Shown here: piece after piece, positions 3,766 to 21,940 of the stretch
Numbering within the stretch: the first letter of the stretch is position 1
How the letters are laid out: every line of letters begins with the position of its first letter
DNA from: a virus
DNA: 22,524 nucleotides
Virus record (IMG/VR): IMGVR_UViG_3300009419_000110
Coordinates: 1 to 22,524 of that record
Strand: one strand, 5' to 3'
Notes under the pieces: generated by a model
Database searches by the model: none
What the model was told of the DNA's origin: nothing
The model's input: the letters and a program-made list of their open reading frames with translations, nothing else
Position numbers and translations under genes: made by a program

Positions 3766-6700
3766 ATGACAGACTTTACACACCTTCACGTTCATAGCTA
3801 TTATAGTCTTATGGATGGGTTGAATTCGCCTGCAGAATTAATGCAGGCAGCCAAGGATCTTGGTCATACATCTATAGCCATTACAGACCACGGAACATTG
3901 TCTTCGCATAGAGAAATGCAAATTGCGGCGGTAGAACAAGGATTGAAACCAATCCTTGGGTTAGAAGCATACATATCCCCTACAGATAGATTTGATAAGT
4001 CATCAAAGACAGATAAGACAGTACAGGCGTACAACCACATAATTTTATTGGCAAAAGATGAAAATGGATTAAAGAATTTAAATAGACTCTCAGAGATTGC
4101 TTGGACTGAAGGATACTATCATAAGCCTAGAATTGATAAAGAAATTTTGGCTGAATACAAAGAAGGAATCATTGCTTTATCTGGCTGCATGAATGGTCTT
4201 ATCTCAAAAGCAATTATTCGTGAAGAATACGAAGAGGCCAAGTCGCTTGCTAAATGGTTTAAAGATACATTTGGAGATGACTTCTATATGGAAGTGCAGC
4301 CACATAACCCACAAGATCTTAATAAGAAACTTTTAGAACTTGCGGATGCTTATGGAATCAAGCCTATTGCAACAGCAGACTGCCACTATGCAAAATCTGA
4401 AGACCGTGCAACAGAAGAAGCCATGTTAATTCTTTCAACATCTCCTAAGATTAATAAGGACGCAGATTTTGAAGCATCAAGAAAGATGACAAACATATTT
4501 GAAAGATTAAACTACCTGTATCCAGAAAGAAAGATTTCTTTTCAATATATTAACGTGTATGTGTCTTCAAGAGAAGAGATGCAAAAAGACTTTGTAGAGC
4601 AAGGTTTTACAAGAACTGATATGTATGATAATACATTAGAGGTTTCAAATAAGATTGGGTCTTATGAGTTCAGAAGAGGATTAGATTTACTTCCAGTTCC
4701 AAAAACAAATGCTGACAATAAGCTAAAAGAATTAGCTTTAAATAGCATGAAAGAAAAAGGTCTTACCAAAGATCTTCACGGAAATGATGAGTATGAGTTA
4801 AGACTAGATGAAGAGCTTAAAATTATTAAGGATAAGAGCTTTGCCTCTTACTTCCTAGTCGTTGCAGATATGATTAACTTTGCAAAGAATAAAGATATCA
4901 TGGTTGGTCCTGGACGTGGTTCTGCTGCTGGCTCGCTAGTCTGCTACCTGCTTGGCATTACTACTGTAGATCCAGTAAAATTTGATCTACTGTTCTTTAG
5001 GTTTATCAATCCAGAGCGCAATGACTTTCCTGATATTGATACAGACTTTGAGGACCGTCGTAGAAAAGAAGTTAAAGAGTATTTGAGAAAGAAGTTTAAG
5101 CACGTTGCTTAAATCTCAACGTTTACATATTTTAAAGATAAAGGAGTTGTAAGAGATGCTGCTCGTGTATTTGGAGTACCACTATCTGAAGTTAATAAAG
5201 CGCTTAAGCAAGTCGACACTTTTGAAGAGTTTGAGACAAGCCCTAATGCGTTCTGGTTCAGAGAAAGATATCCAGAAGTAACTGATTTAGCAAGAAACCT
5301 TCGTGGAAAGATTCGAAGTGTTGGAATGCATGCTGCTGGAATGGTTGTAGCTAAGGATGAACTGGTCAAGTTTGCACCAATTGAAACTAGATCTGATAAA
5401 GATGATGATGTAAGTGGAAGAATCCCAGTCGTAGCTTACGATATGGATACTGTTGCAGACATTGGCCTAATCAAAATTGACGCATTGGGATTAAAGACTT
5501 TATCTGTTATATCCGACACATTAAAGATGATTAGCGATAGACATGGAAAGCACATTGATTTAGAAAAGCTTGACCTTACTGATCCTAAAATTTACGAAGA
5601 CCTGTCTAAAGGGTATACTAAAGGTATATTCCAGGCGGAAGCAACGCCATATACAAACCTTCTTATTAAGATGGGTGTAAGTACATTTGAAGACCTTGCA
5701 GCATCAAACGCTTTGGTACGTCCTGGAGCAATGAATACTGTTGGTCATGCCTATATTGCTCGTAAAAAAGGATTAGAAGATATTGTTTATCAGCACGAAA
5801 TAATGAGACAGTTTACGGAGAGAACTTATGGCGTTATTATTTACCAGGAACAAGTTATGCAAGCATGCGTACACCTTGGCGGTATGTCCATGTCGGAAGC
5901 AGATAAAGTTAGAAAGATCATTGGAAAGAAAAAGGATGCTAAAGAGTTTGATGAGTTCAAGGAAAGGTTTGTCGAGGGCGCTTCAAAGCATATTCCAGTC
6001 AAAACTGCTGAAGAGCTTTGGCATGACTTCGAGGCACACTCTGGATATTCCTTTAATCGTTCTCATGCTATTGCTTACTCTCTTCTTAGTTATTGGACTG
6101 CTTGGCTAAAGCACTATTACCCAACTGAGTTTATGTTTGCAATCCTTAGAAATGAACACGACAAGGATGCTCGTACAGAGTATTTAATTGAAGCAAAGAG
6201 ATTAGGAATTAAGATCCTATTGCCACACGTTAATGAGTCAGATTTAGATTTTAAGATTCAAAAAGATGCAATTAGATTTGGTCTTTCAAATATTAAGTTT
6301 ATATCTGATAATATTGGTAAAAAGCTAATGGAAGCTGGTCCTTTTAAATCATATAAAGACTTAGAAGAGAAAGCATCAGTCAAGGGCAGCGGAATTAACT
6401 CCAGAGCACTTGCAGCGCTCAACTCTATTGGTGCAGCGGCATTTGAAGATAATCCAAGAACTGGCAAAGAGTCTGAGAACTTATATGAGTACCTAAGTAT
6501 TCCAAAGTTTGATCTAGGAAAGGTTTCCCCTCATATTAAAGCGCAGGTAACATCACTAGAGGACTTTGAAGAGCGTGGTACTTTTGTTATGCTTGCTATG
6601 GTTAAAGGAATTAAAAAGGGCAACGGCTGGTCAAGAATTGAAATGGTCGATGAGACTGGGACGATTGGCGTATTCCATACAGAACAAACTCAGATCGAGG

Positions 6701-7050
6701 TAGGAAACATGTACTTCTTCTTGGTCGGAGACAATAGAATCCATAGATATGTTACAATAGATGATGTAGCAAATAGAATAAACGATACATTCGTGACATT
6801 CTTACATTCAGAAAGTCTAAACATACCAGATGCAATGAAGATGAGCGTAAGCCTTCTCCCATATAGAACAAAACAGGGGAAGTCTATGGGCCATTTAATT
6901 ATGTCTAATAGTTCTAAAGAACTTACTCGTGCAATTGTTTTCCCACAATCGTATGATAAATTAAAGGGAAGAATTAAAGATGGAATGATATACATTCCAG
7001 AGATTGGCCAAACAGACGATGGCACTTATTCGCTAAGGAGCGTAAAATGA
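3766..7050 (+). CDS. dnaE: DNA polymerase III alpha subunit (DnaE-type), interrupted by one in-frame TAA
   Basis: The frame from ATG 3766 to TGA 7050 encodes a C-family replicative polymerase of about 1094 residues. The N-terminal PHP domain begins with FTHLHVHSYYSLMDGL. The palm has GPGRGSAAGS and the catalytic PDIDTDF (Asp 423, 425, 427). The third catalytic Asp lies in LIKIDALGLK (about 572), followed by finger and helix-hairpin-helix regions and an OB-like C-terminal part. One TAA (5110-5112, codon 449) interrupts the frame inside KHVA-stop-ISTF. In E. coli DnaE the same place reads VAQIITF, so the stop sits where Gln (CAA) is expected. It separates the catalytic Asps, so neither half alone could polymerise. 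ATG 3766 has GGAGA upstream. An error, a nonsense variant or readthrough are the options. Confidence 0.93.
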
Positions 7051-12408: not shown

Positions 12409-12978
12409 ATGTCTGAAATAGAATTAGCAGAGCGTTTTGACCGTATGAACAAAGTTGTAGAACAAATGCTGATGGGCAATAGCGCTACACAAATATCAAA
12501 GACACTATCCATACCACGCAAGGACGTTCTTGATTTAATTGAAGAATGGAAAGCTGTTGTCCGTGATGATTCAAGCGCAAGAGACCGTGCAAAAGAAGCA
12601 GTAGCTGGTGCAGATCAGCACTACGCAATGCTTATTAAAGAAGCGTGGAAGACTGTAGACGATGCAGATCAGGCAGGACAATTAAATGTTAAGGCTAGCA
12701 CATTAAAGCTTATTGCAGACATTGAGCAAAAAAGAATTGCCATGCTTCAACAACTAGGACTTTTAGATAACGCAGAGCTTGCGAGCCATTTGGCGGAAAC
12801 AGAAAGAAAGCAAGACATACTCATTGGAATACTTAAGGATATATCTGCAGAGTACCCACAGGTAAGAAATGAAATTATGCGTAGGCTGTCTCAAATATCT
12901 AATCAGGTTGAAGAAGTAATTATTGCTGAGCAAAATAATGTAACAAGTCTTAGAAGTGTGAGCGAAGATGACGTTTAA
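12409..12978 (+). CDS. probable terminase small subunit
   Basis: A 189-residue helical protein directly upstream of, and overlapping by 11 bases, the large terminase. An N-terminal helix-turn-helix-like segment (about residues 25-50, containing NSATQISKTLSIPRKDVLDL) could bind DNA. The middle and C-terminal parts form long helices (about 68-155) suited to ring assembly. This arrangement and size fit small terminase proteins, which recognise the phage DNA and regulate the large subunit. There is no direct sequence signature, so the call relies on architecture and position. It has a strong promoter and AGGAG upstream. Confidence 0.65.
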   Translation: MSEIELAERFDRMNKVVEQMLMGNSATQISKTLSIPRKDVLDLIEEWKAVVRDDSSARDRAKEAVAGADQHYAMLIKEAWKTVDDADQAGQLNVKASTLKLIADIEQKRIAMLQQLGLLDNAELASHLAETERKQDILIGILKDISAEYPQVRNEIMRRLSQISNQVEEVIIAEQNNVTSLRSVSEDDV

Positions 12979-14746
12979 TTTTTCAGACATAATAGATATT
13001 CTTGACGGAGAAGAATTTGATGAGCGTCCAGTAGAGCTGGATGAATTTGTTGTTAGCAACGAGTACCTTGGTTTGCCACCATTATCAGAGTATCAGTATA
13101 TGCTTATCAGGGCAAGCTCTCAAATATACAAGAGAGCAACATTAAACAAACTATATGGTGAAGAAGCTGGTGAAAAGCGCTGGAAAGAAACAGTAAATGA
13201 GGTTGTAGCACAATTAGGTAAAGGATCAGGAAAAGACTACTGCTCAACCATTGCGGTTGCTTACATTGTTTATCTTCTTCTATGCTTAAAAGATCCAGCA
13301 AAATATTTTGGTAAACCTCCTGGAGACTCAATTGATCTTATCAATATTGCTGTTAACGCTCAGCAGGCAAAGAACGTTTTCTTTAAAGGCTTAAAGACTA
13401 GAATTGATAAGTCACCTTGGTTTGCAGGTAAGTATGTGCCAAAGGCTGACGTAATTGAATTTGATAAGGGAATTAGTTGTCACTCAGGTCACTCAGAAAG
13501 AGAAGCTTTTGAGGGATACAACGCACTAGTAGTTATCCTAGACGAGATCTCTGGATTTAGCATTGATAATACAACTGGTCACGAGCAAGCAAAAACAGCT
13601 GGAGCGATATATGACATGTATCGTGCATCAGTTGACTCACGTTTCCCAGACTTTGGTAAAGTAATTCTTCTTTCTTTCCCACGTTATAAGAATGACTATA
13701 TTCAGCAAAGATATGAGGCGGTAGTTGCTCAAAAAGAAGTAAAAGTATTAAGTCATAAGTTTAAGATGGACGAAGATCTTGCGGATGGAGTAGATGGAAA
13801 TGAGTTTACTGTTGAGTGGGAAGAGGATCAGATCATATCCTATAAGATTCCAAAGACGTTTGCTCTGCGTAGACCTACATGGCAAATTAATCCAACTAGA
13901 ACTATTGATGATTTTAAGGTAGCTTTTTATACAAATCCAACAGATGCTTTGTCACGTTTTGCATGTATGCCACCAGAAGCAGTAGACGCCTTCTTTAAAT
14001 CAAGAGAGAAGATTGAAGCGGCTTTTGTATTAAATAACGGTGTAGATAACTCTACTGGTAGATTTGAAGAGGCTCTAAAGCCTATTGACGATATGGAATA
14101 TTTTGTTCACGTAGACTTAGCTCAAAAGCATGACCATTGTGCGGTATCTATGTCTCATGTAAGTGAGTGGGTAAAGATCAGATCATTTAATGATTATGAG
14201 CAGGTAGCACCTAAAGTTATTGTTGATGCAGTAAGATGGTGGACTCCTACATCAGATAAGTCAGTAGATTTTACTGAGGTTAAAGATTATATAATCTCAC
14301 TTAAGTCAAGAGGATTCAATATTAAAGCTGTGACATTTGACAGATGGAACTCACACGACATGATGCAGCAGATTAAAAATTATAATATTCATACAGAGAT
14401 CCTGTCGGTAGCAAAGAAGCACTACGAAGACATGGCTTTGGGGATTATGGAAGAGAGAATAAAAGGGCCAGATATTAAGTTGCTCATAGACGAACTCTTA
14501 CAACTAAGAATTATGAGAGATAAGGTAGATCACCCTAGAAAGGGCTCTAAAGACCTTGCAGACGCCGTATGCGGGTCAATATACAATGCCATATCAAGAT
14601 CACAGAAAGGCGATAGAGAAATTAACATTCACACTTGGGCTGGAAGTAAAGAAGATAATGTAAATAGCAAGGTGACTAAGGATGGAGTACCCAAGAGGAT
14701 GCCAGCAGAACTCTTGGATGCAATATCAGGAATGAGTATACTATGA
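12968..14746 (+). CDS. terL: terminase large subunit (ATPase and nuclease)
   Basis: A 592-residue DNA packaging motor. The ATPase domain has a Walker A-like QLGKGSGKD (about residues 75-83), Walker B VVILDE followed by ISGF, and the coupling motif VILLSFPR. The C-terminal RNase H-like nuclease domain starts with YFVHVDLAQKHDHCAVS (catalytic Asp), followed by VTFDRWNS and the final DLADAVCG motif. All motifs are intact. It translocates DNA into the prohead and cuts concatemers. ATG 12968 lies within the end of the small subunit gene, so translation is coupled. Confidence 0.95.
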   Translation: MTFNFSDIIDILDGEEFDERPVELDEFVVSNEYLGLPPLSEYQYMLIRASSQIYKRATLNKLYGEEAGEKRWKETVNEVVAQLGKGSGKDYCSTIAVAYIVYLLLCLKDPAKYFGKPPGDSIDLINIAVNAQQAKNVFFKGLKTRIDKSPWFAGKYVPKADVIEFDKGISCHSGHSEREAFEGYNALVVILDEISGFSIDNTTGHEQAKTAGAIYDMYRASVDSRFPDFGKVILLSFPRYKNDYIQQRYEAVVAQKEVKVLSHKFKMDEDLADGVDGNEFTVEWEEDQIISYKIPKTFALRRPTWQINPTRTIDDFKVAFYTNPTDALSRFACMPPEAVDAFFKSREKIEAAFVLNNGVDNSTGRFEEALKPIDDMEYFVHVDLAQKHDHCAVSMSHVSEWVKIRSFNDYEQVAPKVIVDAVRWWTPTSDKSVDFTEVKDYIISLKSRGFNIKAVTFDRWNSHDMMQQIKNYNIHTEILSVAKKHYEDMALGIMEERIKGPDIKLLIDELLQLRIMRDKVDHPRKGSKDLADAVCGSIYNAISRSQKGDREINIHTWAGSKEDNVNSKVTKDGVPKRMPAELLDAISGMSIL

Positions 14747-17797: not shown

Positions 17798-18496
17798 ATG
17801 ATAAATCAAATTTTATTGTTGGATGATGAAACAAATGAAGCTGATGCTTTAGTAGATAGCAATAAAAAGCTATTTAATATGTTTTATCCAGATCTTGGCT
17901 ATAAAATTTGGAAGATGCAGGATATCAGATCATTTTTGTCTAGCAGTTTTGACAGTGATGTGATTAATGCATTTGATAGTTTGAAGCCATACGCATATAA
18001 ATCAGATCTAGCAAGGCTATGTATCTTATATGAGCTAGGTGGATTCTATTTTGATATTCATACAAAGCCAGCGTCAAGTTTTATTCCAGATAAAAAGATT
18101 ATGGCATTTAGGGATATTCAAAAAAATAGTTTTACCTCATGGTCTGTACAAACAAATGTATTGTTTTCACAGCCAGGACAAAAAGTTTTCTCTGATGCTA
18201 TATCCATACTGTTAGAGAATGTAAGAAATAGGTACTACGGAATTACTGCTTTATGTCCAACTGGTCCAACAGTTATGGGAAAAGCTTTTGCTAATTTTGG
18301 AGCTACATTAGATCATCTAATTGGTGATTTTATGGAACTTACTCCATCTTTTGGCATAAAGAATAATGCTTCAGTGCTACCAGACGGAAAGATATTTGCA
18401 TTTGGCAAGAATTTGCCTGGTGGAGATATAAGTATGTATGGGTCAAACAACTATGGGAAAATGTGGTTTGATAAAAATATTTATAGTGGGGATTAG
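17798..18496 (+). CDS. GT32-like glycosyltransferase
   Basis: A 232-residue enzyme resembling the DXD-containing sugar transferases of family GT32 (Gly_transf_sug). The signature AYKSDLARLCILYELGG then FYFDIHT is clear (Asp70, Asp86). The normal DXD reads Asp86-Ile-His88, so the second acidic residue is His; either metal use differs or activity is reduced. The C-terminal half has PTGPTVMGKAF and a Gly-rich end. It may glycosylate host surface polymers, virion proteins or DNA bases; the substrate cannot be read. AGGAAAG lies upstream of ATG 17798. The last 10 bases and the stop codon lie inside tRNA-Asn. Confidence 0.82.
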   Translation: MINQILLLDDETNEADALVDSNKKLFNMFYPDLGYKIWKMQDIRSFLSSSFDSDVINAFDSLKPYAYKSDLARLCILYELGGFYFDIHTKPASSFIPDKKIMAFRDIQKNSFTSWSVQTNVLFSQPGQKVFSDAISILLENVRNRYYGITALCPTGPTVMGKAFANFGATLDHLIGDFMELTPSFGIKNNASVLPDGKIFAFGKNLPGGDISMYGSNNYGKMWFDKNIYSGD

Positions 18497-18559
18497 CTCA
18501 GTCGGCAGAGCGGGAAACTGTTAATTTCTAGGTCATAGGTTCGAGTCCTATATCCCCAG
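18487..18559 (+). tRNA. tRNA-Asn (anticodon GTT)
   Basis: The acceptor TGGGGAT pairs with ATCCCCA. The anticodon stem GGAAA/TTTCT (one G:T) carries loop CTGTTAA with GTT. The T stem is ATAGG/CCTAT and the discriminator is G. Its first ten bases are shared with the end of the glycosyltransferase gene. First of five tRNAs in a row. Confidence 0.92.
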
Positions 18560-18563
18560 CAGT

Positions 18564-18634
18564 GCGAGTGTTACATAATGGTAGTGTCTCTGCCTTCCAA
18601 GCAGATAGTGCCAGTTCGATTCTGGTCACTCGCT
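18564..18634 (+). tRNA. tRNA-Gly (anticodon TCC)
   Basis: The acceptor GCGAGTG pairs with CACTCGC. The anticodon stem TCTGC/GCAGA carries loop CTTCCAA with TCC, reading GGA, a very common codon here. The discriminator is T, and CCA follows directly at 18635-18637, so the 3' end is encoded. Confidence 0.93.
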
Positions 18635-18637
18635 CCA

Positions 18638-18720
18638 GGAAGTATGGCAGAGTGGTCGAATGCAACGGTTTGCTAAATCGTAGATCGAAAGATCCACAGG
18701 TTCGAATCCTGTTACTTCCG
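18638..18720 (+). tRNA. tRNA-Ser (anticodon GCT)
   Basis: A class II tRNA with a long variable arm (around AGATCGAAAGATCC). The acceptor is GGAAGTA/TACTTCC. The anticodon stem ACGGT/ATCGT carries loop TTGCTAA with GCT, reading AGC and AGT. The discriminator is G, followed by an encoded CCA at 18721-18723. Confidence 0.93.
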
Positions 18721-18724
18721 CCAG

Positions 18725-18795
18725 TTTCCACTCGTCCAACGGCAGGACATCGCCCTTTGGAGGCGAGAATCGTGGTTCGAATCCATGGTGGAAAG
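18725..18795 (+). tRNA. tRNA-Gln (anticodon TTG)
   Basis: The acceptor TTTCCAC pairs with GTGGAAA. The D stem is GTCC/GGAC. The anticodon stem TCGCC/GGCGA carries loop CTTTGGA with TTG, reading CAA. The T stem is CGTGG/CCATG with one wobble. The discriminator is G. The weak U1:A72 first pair is typical of glutamine tRNAs. Confidence 0.9.
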
Positions 18796-18799
18796 CTAG

Positions 18800-18872
18800 G
18801 CCCCTATAGCCCAGCGGTAGAGGCACACGACTTAAAATCGTGACAGCGTTGGTTCGAATCCAACTAGGGGTA
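18800..18872 (+). tRNA. class I tRNA with anticodon TAA (nominal Leu, lacking a long variable arm)
   Basis: A well-formed cloverleaf. The acceptor is GCCCCTA/TAGGGGT (G:T at the first pair), the anticodon stem CACGA/TCGTG with loop CTTAAAA, and the T stem GTTGG/CCAAC. The discriminator is A. The anticodon TAA reads the Leu codon TTA, but the variable region is only five bases (ACAGC), whereas bacterial Leu tRNAs are class II with a long arm. The D stem has one mismatched pair. Amino acid identity is therefore uncertain. Confidence 0.85.
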
Positions 18873-18878
18873 CTATTC

Positions 18879-19490: not shown

Positions 19491-19712
19491 ATGGCTAAAT
19501 TGAATTACGAGGCAGCTCATAAAGTTGTCGACGCAAACTATAACCTATACTGGGACGGATGGAACATCTGTTCTTGGCGTAGAGACCATAAAGGATTTTT
19601 TAATAAGCAAGGAATTTTTAGAAATGGTAACTGGGGAATTGTAGAGTGCTTCAATATGGAAGATGATGGCACGTGGAAGGTCCCAGATAAATATGTCAAA
19701 TATATTAAATGA
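19491..19712 (+). CDS. aromatic-rich small hypothetical protein
   Basis: A 73-residue protein unusually rich in Trp and Tyr (five Trp, six Tyr). The pattern NYNLYWDGWNICSWRRDHKGFFNKQG...NGNWGIVECFNMEDDGTWKVP reads like a compact beta-sheet domain. No catalytic motif is seen and the family is not recognised. It has its own probable promoter and overlaps the WhiB-like gene by 20 bases, so both may be expressed together. Confidence 0.68.
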   Translation: MAKLNYEAAHKVVDANYNLYWDGWNICSWRRDHKGFFNKQGIFRNGNWGIVECFNMEDDGTWKVPDKYVKYIK

Positions 19713-20007
19713 TTTAGGCGTAGATGTAGAAGATTTAGATTGGACAGATTTAGCAGCATGTTCAGGTATGCCAGCCGAATTCTTTTTTGACACGTACGAA
19801 ATTGATCAAACATTAGCTAAGAACATTGATGAGATGTGCTTAGTTTGTCCAGTAGCAAAGCAATGTCTTGCCGCTGGTGTAGAGGGAGATGAGTATGGCG
19901 TATGGGGCGGAGCCTATTTAACTTTGGGTGATGTAGATAAAACTAGGAACTCTCATAAAACTCCAGAAATCTGGAAAAGATGGAAGAGTAAGCATGGACA
20001 AAAGTAG
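19693..20007 (+). CDS. whiB: WhiB-like Fe-S transcription regulator
   Basis: A 104-residue WhiB-family protein with all key features: Cys23, Cys49-x2-Cys52-x5-Cys58 for the 4Fe-4S cluster, the GVWGG turn (69-73), and a basic C-terminal tail (about 84-104). WhiB proteins occur in Actinobacteria and their phages, bind the primary sigma factor and change promoter choice; the phage TM4 WhiB is a known example that affects host growth. ATG 19693 is used because the 10 extra upstream residues are a shadow of the previous gene. Neighbouring promoters resemble the sigma70 type, so it might control phage or host promoters. Confidence 0.92.
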   Translation: MSNILNDLGVDVEDLDWTDLAACSGMPAEFFFDTYEIDQTLAKNIDEMCLVCPVAKQCLAAGVEGDEYGVWGGAYLTLGDVDKTRNSHKTPEIWKRWKSKHGQK

Positions 20008-20465: not shown

Positions 20466-20682
20466 TTGTAGCAAATCTAGATTTAAGATAAGTGCAAAAA
20501 AATCTGTGCTTATTAAAGGAATAAATCTACTCCTTTGCGAGCAATGCATATCTAATGGATATGAGCCAAGATGGGCCATCATTCTTGCTGGCAGACAATA
20601 TGGGTCGGAGTTAGTAAAAGAATACGTGCTTAACCATAAATACTATGGAGAAGAGATAAGTGCTACGGAGCTTCTTGTATGA
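20443..20682 (+). CDS. small zinc-binding protein
   Basis: A 79-residue protein with two Cys pairs, Cys6-x2-Cys9 and Cys32-x2-Cys35, forming a probable treble-clef or zinc-ribbon site. A basic segment (11-25) lies between them and a helical C-terminal half follows. Three consecutive ATG codons occur (20437, 20440, 20443); AGGAG at 20431-20435 is best spaced for 20443, so this start is chosen. Function unknown; it may bind nucleic acid or a protein partner. Confidence 0.68.
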   Translation: MDQILCYSCSKSRFKISAKKSVLIKGINLLLCEQCISNGYEPRWAIILAGRQYGSELVKEYVLNHKYYGEEISATELLV

Positions 20683-20903
20683 AAACATCAGAAAGAATTG
20701 GTTATATATTAGGAATACTAATAGGATTATCAGTCTGGGGATACATAATTTATTATGTAGCATCGGAGTTGTTTAATAGAATTATCAATGATTCTGCTGA
20801 TCCATTCCCAGTGTTGACACTATTGGTTGGAATTGCTATACTTATAAGACAGACTTCCTTAACTAAGAAATTTAAAGCTATTCAAGAATGGATAAATAAA
20901 TGA
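20679..20903 (+). CDS. small membrane protein with two transmembrane helices
   Basis: A 74-residue protein whose ATG overlaps the previous TGA (ATGA). Two hydrophobic segments are visible (about residues 7-29 and 43-57) separated by a short acidic loop, with a basic C-terminal tail (about 58-74). The basic tail would be cytoplasmic, giving a hairpin topology. The size and topology fit a holin or a small inner-membrane modifier, but no lysin is seen nearby, so holin is only a possibility. Confidence 0.7.
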   Translation: MKTSERIGYILGILIGLSVWGYIIYYVASELFNRIINDSADPFPVLTLLVGIAILIRQTSLTKKFKAIQEWINK

Positions 20904-21454
20904 CAGTCATCGCTGCCGTTGTAAATGAAAATGGTTCCTATATTGCTGGTGACCGTGGTGCATCTGATGACAACATTATTCTTCCATTAGCTCACCCAAA
21001 GGTTTGGCAGATAGGTCAGTACCTGTTTGGCTATTATGGTAGTATGGACGGCGAAAAGGTTATGTATAACTTTGACCCACCAGTACCAACAGCAGCACAA
21101 AGAAAGAACATAGATAAGTTCATGGGGAATGACTTTACTAAAGCATTAAAAGATTTCTATGATGAGCATTTTGTATTTACTGCAGAAAAAGAATGCGACT
21201 TTGGAATGATAATTATTGCAGAGGGTAGAATGTATGAGCATGATGCTGGAACTATGTCAATGACAAGATTTGAAACAGATTATCTTTCTGTCGGAAGCGG
21301 ATCAGAGTATGCTTATGGATCACTATACAGCACACAGGTGTGGAGCGACGGAAAGAAAAGAGTAAGAATTGCTATTGAGGCGGCTACAAAGTACAGCCCC
21401 TCCTGTATGCAACCAATAGACGTAATATCAATACCAAGAAAAGAGATAAAGTAA
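20900..21454 (+). CDS. proteasome/HslV-like Ntn hydrolase
   Basis: A 184-residue protein resembling proteasome beta and HslV peptidases. After removal of Met, Thr would be the N-terminal nucleophile. With Thr as 1, Asp17 lies in the AGDRGAS motif and Lys33 in HPKVW, exactly the proteasome catalytic positions. FGYYGS follows in the usual place, and a later SVGSGSEYAYGSL matches the Gly-rich active-site loop. No long propeptide is present, as in HslV. It probably self-assembles into a chamber and digests proteins. No HslU- or Mpa-like ATPase partner is visible in the window. ATG 20900 overlaps the previous stop by 4 bases. Confidence 0.83.
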   Translation: MTVIAAVVNENGSYIAGDRGASDDNIILPLAHPKVWQIGQYLFGYYGSMDGEKVMYNFDPPVPTAAQRKNIDKFMGNDFTKALKDFYDEHFVFTAEKECDFGMIIIAEGRMYEHDAGTMSMTRFETDYLSVGSGSEYAYGSLYSTQVWSDGKKRVRIAIEAATKYSPSCMQPIDVISIPRKEIK

Positions 21455-21663
21455 TGAATGACTTCACATTGCAAGACCTAGAGCAAATGATTTCTGATAT
21501 TTCAAAAGAATTCTATGCAGAATTCTACGCTCATCAGAATCCAGAAGGTGACCAGGAATTTATTACTGTTCACAGGCAGTTTGCAGAAACATATGTAGTG
21601 TTTACTGTAAATCGACTTATCCAAAGATTTAATGAATTGATGGCTCCAAATGCCACAGAATGA
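21454..21663 (+). CDS. small helical hypothetical protein
   Basis: A 69-residue mostly helical acidic protein. Its ATG shares a base with the TAA of the proteasome-like gene (TAATG), so translation is probably coupled. It has amphipathic helices at about residues 5-27 and 38-62 and no Cys or motif. Coupling to the peptidase makes it a candidate partner or adaptor, but this is only inference from position. Confidence 0.62.
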   Translation: MNDFTLQDLEQMISDISKEFYAEFYAHQNPEGDQEFITVHRQFAETYVVFTVNRLIQRFNELMAPNATE

Positions 21664-21940
21664 TTTTGAGACAGATGTAAAGAAAATTTTTGATGAGGCG
21701 TACGACCTCCTGCTAAGAAAGCATAAGGACTACGGCCCAAAGAATATCTCATCTGCTCCAGGAGGAGCTCTTAATGGTCTTATTGTACGAAAGCATGATA
21801 AGTTTGAAAGAATTAAGAATCTATTCTTCAATAAAAAGGATAGCAAGCCTCAGTTTGAGACACTTAGAGAGTCATTCATTGATGATCTTAACTATAGCGC
21901 CATAGCAATGTTAGTCATTGATGGAAAATGGCCAGACTAA
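21650..21940 (+). CDS. Nmad1/DUF1599-like protein
   Basis: A 96-residue helical protein with RKHKDYGPKNI...NGLIVRKHDKFERI and a final DDLNYSAIAMLVIDG, the pattern of the DUF1599 / nucleotide modification-associated domain 1 family. These are all-helical proteins related to MazG-type pyrophosphatases and common in phages. They have been proposed, from gene neighbourhoods, to take part in modified-nucleotide metabolism. With the MazG gene at 7297 this is a second nucleotide-related gene. ATG 21650 overlaps the previous gene by 14 bases. Confidence 0.78.
   Translation: MPQNDFETDVKKIFDEAYDLLLRKHKDYGPKNISSAPGGALNGLIVRKHDKFERIKNLFFNKKDSKPQFETLRESFIDDLNYSAIAMLVIDGKWPD

Follow-up and report, generated by a model that had tools for sequence, protein, structure and literature searches.

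The stretch of viral DNA analysed here (22,524 nt, hereafter the window) encodes a protein that resembles a single subunit of the proteasome. The locus raises the question whether this is a genuine enzyme, to which kind of proteasome homologue it belongs, and how such a free-standing subunit may act in a phage. An earlier note, made from the sequence alone, had read the gene as a proteasome/HslV-like protease and had linked it to its two small neighbours. The features discussed are collected in Table 1.

Table 1. Features of the window that bear on the protease locus and on the host group.
Feature	Coordinates	Strand	Remarks
Terminase large subunit (TerL)	12968..14746	+	6.2 kb upstream of protease; nearest known relatives in Streptomyces phages (60% identity)
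tRNA Met	15009		
tRNA Arg	16206		
Cluster of five tRNA genes (Asn, Gly, Ser, Gln, Leu)	18487-18873		
WhiB-type regulator	19663..20007	+	actinophage host-group marker
Two-transmembrane-helix protein	20679..20903	+	74 aa; stop overlaps protease start (ATGA)
Proteasome-type N-terminal-threonine (Ntn) hydrolase	20900..21454	+	184 aa; assigned by PHROG 1040, residues in register, predicted fold and dN/dS
Predicted two-helix protein	21454..21663	+	69 aa; start overlaps protease stop (TAATG)
PHROG 1485 protein	21650..21940	+	96 aa; weak DUF1599 match; next gene downstream

Catalytic residues and selection

The protease open reading frame is intact, has an ATG start and encodes a protein that begins with Met-Thr and has no propeptide. 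Counting from the threonine that follows Met1 confirmed the earlier assignment: Thr1 (residue 2), Asp17 (residue 18) and Lys33 (residue 34) fall at the canonical positions, and a Gly131-Ser132-Gly133 loop (residues 132-134) comes after them. In an alignment of 98 diverse relatives, mostly only 20-30% identical to the window protease, T1, D17, K33, G131 and G133 are each present in 98/98 sequences, and a glycine at position 43 is kept in 97/98. The same five residues are each found in 131/131 Planktophila-type homologues, which form a separate branch; identity between the protease branches is ≈20-30%. Loss of Thr1, Asp17 or Lys33 in homologues, which would have spoken against the earlier reading, was thus not seen in either set. 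The dN/dS ratios of the window gene versus its relatives (0.035-0.135, Nei-Gojobori) indicate purifying selection. The invariance across branches and the dN/dS ratios show that the register reflects homology and selection rather than chance and, together with the predicted fold described below, that the gene is real and is selected for catalysis. Judged by its sequence, the window protease is apparently an active-looking enzyme with the build of a proteasome subunit. One close relative (L003/L014) has a frameshift near codon 154, close to the end of the gene, which is either an assembly error or real.

Family membership and predicted fold

The only PHROG family matched by the window protease is PHROG 1040 ('peptidase HslV family', E 1.1e-16), which is also matched by 16/16 diverse family members. 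With Pfam PF00227 the window protein stays below threshold, and 12 of the 16 members match at E ≤0.1 (best E 4.9e-9). When a profile of 61 relatives was compared with the PDB, 20S beta and HslV chains were among the matches, and the best full-length one was BPH (E 1.2e-6). The AlphaFold2 monomer, computed from the 61-relative alignment, adopts a confident proteasome-type Ntn fold (pLDDT 93.2, pTM 0.90) and not the non-Ntn fold that the earlier note had named as evidence against itself. Its nearest structure in the PDB by Foldseek is BPH 5ovs (E 4.9e-12), followed by HslV and then by 20S beta. The same model compared with viral models gave 42 proteins at E <0.001, including those of the Gordonia phages Daredevil and Nymphadora. 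BPH (Td-BPH 5ovs, Cm-BPH 5ovu) is thus the best solved relative by both profile and predicted fold, at an identity of 17-21%; the pore loop is shorter by about three residues in the pairwise alignment of BPH and the window protease.

Of the earlier designation 'proteasome/HslV-like', the proteasome-type Ntn part stands and HslV itself does not. HslV shares the fold, the Met-Thr start and T1/D17/K33 with the window protease, but the profile match is weak: no HslV NCBIfam model was matched at E 0.01, and hhalign against E. coli HslV reached only 36.8% over 38 columns. No HslU-type ATPase (AAA_2, PF07724) was found in the 11 contigs of the clade, which are fragments. The label of PHROG 1040 implies HslV, whereas the window protein, a direct HMM member of that family, is closer to BPH and to the AAH-type proteins. 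A 20S proteasome beta subunit was rejected on the basis of TIGR03690 (27 bits versus a cut-off of 191.9) and of the Met-Thr start with no propeptide. PPH was rejected by length and architecture, as the window protein has 184 residues and a long helix within positions 65-90, while PPH has about 140 residues and lacks helix H2.

PPH and AAH of phages are among the 22 new proteasome homologues that Fuchs, Alva and Lupas reported in 2021 (PMC8665760). Profile-profile comparison by hhalign aligned the window protease with AAH-type proteins at 99.1% over 172 columns; the near relatives of these comparison proteins are actinobacterial chromosomal genes, and by their hosts the proteins probably correspond to the published AAH set. 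The AlphaFold2 model has predicted helices at 51-57, 65-90, 135-144 and 151-165 and a final strand at 174-179, just beyond which the chain stops. It shows the compact group I architecture with two helix pairs, no insertions and no C-terminal S12/H5. The phage PPH and AAH-type homologues are likewise compact, phage-borne group I subunits with T1/D17/K33. The window protease differs from the AAH type in its identity of only ≈25% and its separate long stem, in reading GYYGSMDGE where the AAH type has GFTSSFRMGQ, and in a GSG loop where GCG is commoner. By sequence and model, it is a phage 'group I' proteasome-like protein, an AAH-type (PHROG 1040) member in a deeply separate actinophage clade.

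Distribution and host group

Close homologues (74-99% identical) occur in ten IMG/VR contigs. A pattern scan derived from the close alignment returned these same ten and no others, and the corresponding scan of bacterial genomes gave no protease match, so that the window clade looks phage-only at that sensitivity. Megablast of the whole window against phages gave no match. The tree recovers the window clade as a monophyletic group (100/99) with a long stem, distinct from the AAH core as well as from the Planktophila type; support for the deeper forks is weak. The idea that a proteasome-like protease is a rarity in phages had to be abandoned: the family is published (PMC8665760), hundreds of phage contigs carry it, and the Planktophila-type branch alone is found in at least 540 IMG/VR contigs. 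Homologues in GenBank actinophages are annotated as 'protease' in Microbacterium phage Pumpernickel and as 'ATP-dependent protease subunit' in Actinomycetia phage DSL-LC01. A chromosomal homologue is present in 20/247 genomes sampled from the class of one actinobacterial carrier.

Some members depart from the single-gene, compact form. Aeromonas phage 2L372X (NC_048770), L023 and L033 have two adjacent genes, both annotated as peptidase HslV family; the second of the pair is divergent and crosses the record start, and the two are possibly alpha/beta-like. The homologue of Pseudoalteromonas phage J2-1 (L022:2501-3667) has 388 residues with a long C-terminal extension.

WhiB, an accepted actinophage marker (PMC10202952, PMC6802176), is encoded in 11/11 contigs of the window clade (the ten relatives and the window) versus 2/50 contigs of the wider family. 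Streptomyces phages have the nearest terminase and DNA polymerase (58-60% identity), and the GC content is 38%. The host is therefore likely to be a low-GC freshwater actinobacterium. In the 60-90 kb segment of Streptomyces phage Gilson, from the closest named phage group, no protease gene was found. The freshwater actinophages Planktophila phage LanE43-AprE7 and F5 (OX376640, OX376641) resemble the window phage in several respects: they carry WhiB (PMC10202952), a PHROG 1040 homologue with T1/D17/K33, and a homologue of the PHROG 1485 protein, which in these phages is not adjacent to the protease. Their protease is only 29% identical to that of the window, lies behind the portal gene and belongs to a separate clade of the tree.

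Further observations concern the remainder of the window and its relatives. Hsp20 is encoded in 7/11 contigs of the clade, and at L013:13716-15759 the genes for a CHAP endolysin, Hsp20 and thioredoxin follow one another, 5-7 kb from the protease on its downstream side. A glycosyltransferase-like protein (Gly_transf_sug, DXD motif family) is encoded at 17798-18496 of the window and has a homologue at this locus only in L012. A DnaE-like DNA polymerase is split into two open reading frames (3766-5112 and 5326-7050) that are separated by a gap of 213 nt and correspond to consecutive parts of PHROG 405. Some open reading frames listed across the tRNA cluster are probably spurious.

The window clade does not represent a new kind of protein but adds a branch to one that is published. 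The novelty is a clade that is deeply separated and is carried by large actinophages with WhiB; Fuchs, Alva and Lupas could find no Actinobacteria-specific phage with AAH (PMC8665760). New as well are the cassette of overlapping genes and the gene context across the wider family, both of which are described in the following.

A cassette of overlapping genes

The coupling of the protease to a two-helix membrane protein upstream and to a small helical protein downstream, as claimed before, is borne out by the start/stop overlaps ATGA and TAATG and by the presence of the cassette in 10/11 phages, the window counted. The upstream protein has hydrophobic stretches at about residues 6-32 and 38-63 (19-residue windows), a conserved inter-helix loop around DPFPVLT with an invariant core D-P-x-P-x-L-T, and the tail EWINK. 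Its gene overlaps the protease start by 4 nt in all nine relatives that have it (ATGA, once GTGA), and a pattern scan of IMG/VR for the protein returned nine contigs, 9/9 of which also encode the protease. The 69-residue downstream protein is predicted to form two helices (pLDDT 88) and evolves fast, with only 16-32% identity outside the closest kin. The exception is contig G004 (= L004/L015), whose protease is 77% identical to that of the window: both small genes are absent at the locus, and the membrane protein was not found in the whole 96.5 kb of the contig. The cassette is thus real, yet not obligatory. As a family-wide feature the membrane partner was rejected, since a predicted transmembrane segment occurred in only 2/78 upstream neighbours of the wider family; on sequence evidence this link is specific to the window clade, which by its overlapping partner and its WhiB-carrying phages differs from the AAH of PMC8665760.

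Mechanistic considerations

With search settings for which positive controls matched, neither AAA (PF00004) nor AAA_2 domains were found over cut-off in the window, itself a 22.5-kb fragment, or in the ten related contigs (≈536 kb). The statement of the earlier note that no ATPase unfoldase is seen at the locus can accordingly be extended to its relatives. The same holds for the known homologues: no AAA+ partner has been reported for BPH (PMC5777263) or for the new homologues of Fuchs, Alva and Lupas, who also found no informative gene context (PMC8665760).

The best explanation, which we hold with moderate confidence, is a catalytically competent N-terminal-threonine protease that would work without a phage-encoded unfoldase. 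By analogy to the fold and to BPH and HslV, the methionine aminopeptidase of the host would remove Met1 and expose Thr1 as the nucleophile; Lys33 would serve as the general base, supported by Asp17. The compact subunits, having neither propeptide nor C-terminal extension, would form a ring that hides the active sites. Lacking a dedicated phage unfoldase, the enzyme would most likely cleave proteins that are unfolded or flexible, or else a small number of specific proteins of the phage or the host, independently of ATP. At the membrane, the protease may be tethered or gated by the two-transmembrane-helix protein from the overlapping upstream gene, with the small helical protein as a possible adaptor. 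The literature searched reports no activity for any phage member of the family; BPH bound epoxomicin and had no protease activity in vitro (PMC5777263).

A possible but doubtful alternative is a head-assembly protease, in which the family would take the slot of a prohead protease and trim or clear internal head proteins, scaffold or proteins associated with the portal; the window clade would have kept this role although its gene has moved. It draws on the gene context of the wider family, which points to head and packaging genes and lay outside the view of the earlier note. In the Planktophila-type contigs (L168-L299) a portal homologue ends ≤150 nt upstream of the protease in 126/131 cases and ≤190 nt upstream in 130/131. 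In Planktophila phage F5, TerL is followed by portal, Ntn, ..., scaffold and major head protein, and among 20 of its open reading frames that were scanned none matched a PHROG head maturation protease. In AAH-core phages the genes immediately next to the protease repeatedly encode the terminase subunits (small and large), the portal, or minor head and head morphogenesis proteins. Among AAH-core contigs of at least 25 kb, with TerL located independently, the protease lies ≤3 kb from TerL in 13/23, versus 3.9 expected for random placement (P ≈1e-5, which overstates the strength because the contigs are related and not independent). At L043:49-2823 the AAH-core homologue sits between TerS and TerL, at distances of about 30 nt and 14 nt. 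Against this reading, the terminase region is a common insertion site, and some of the genes next to AAH-core proteases are themselves matches to a head maturation protease family. In T5-like phages the gene has thymidylate synthase and RNase H as its neighbours. The window clade has it in an accessory region 6.2 kb downstream of TerL, where it is coupled to a membrane protein; the link to the head is thus not universal. Of the functional leads for the wider family, head morphogenesis has the best support; for the window clade it is one possibility among several. A broader proposal would make the Ntn hydrolase a head-assembly enzyme that is general among tailed phages and has gone unrecognised. 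In the abundant freshwater actinophages it would occupy the place of the prohead protease behind the portal, and the window clade would be a membrane-coupled offshoot; we regard this proposal as unlikely.

The earlier note had suggested a protein-degradation module that may borrow Mpa/ARC or ClpX of the host or may work alone. A peptidase that borrows a host unfoldase (Mpa/ARC, ClpX or ClpC) and thereby redirects the protein degradation of the host we consider distinctly unlikely. The absence of AAA and AAA_2 matches over cut-off in the 11 contigs would fit such a dependence. In addition, 7/7 examined actinobacterial genomes with AAH-type genes also encode a 20S beta subunit; actinobacterial hosts with this subunit hold proteasome ATPases, so these carriers should hold them too. 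The family is, however, also found in Salmonella and Vibrio phages, whose hosts are not known to have Mpa, and the literature searched gave nothing on a proteasome of the window phage's host.

Improbable, too, is a non-degradative Ntn enzyme, be it a processing enzyme, a transpeptidase (connectase-like ligase) or an amidohydrolase, which would have a single substrate, perhaps a surface protein or the membrane partner. Connectase sets the precedent of a ligase with the proteasome fold (PMC8665760), and both the tight linkage to a small membrane protein with an invariant loop and the missing unfoldase would suit such a function, but the two-helix S3-S4 insertion of connectase is absent from the predicted secondary structure of the window protease, and the nearest structures are ring-forming proteases. 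That the protein is a decoy or poison subunit which co-assembles with the host proteasome or HslV and blocks it is hardly credible: the phage contigs do show the subunit alone with no ATPase partner, but a pure decoy would not need the catalytic residues that are invariant in every relative examined, and on this invariance of T1/D17/K33 a catalytic decoy was rejected.

Implications

A competent threonine protease acting without an unfoldase of the phage thus is the reading that we prefer for the window clade, and the head-module context concerns the family as a whole. Phage proteasome homologues have been known since 2021 without a functional lead, and this context supplies one that is testable. 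In a large number of phage contigs the present survey finds the gene at a conserved place, either following the portal or close to the terminase, and it adds several actinophage lineages that carry the gene. Among these are Planktophila phages E7 and F5, two isolates that grow on a cultured host and in which the role of a proteasome-like subunit in a phage can be tested.
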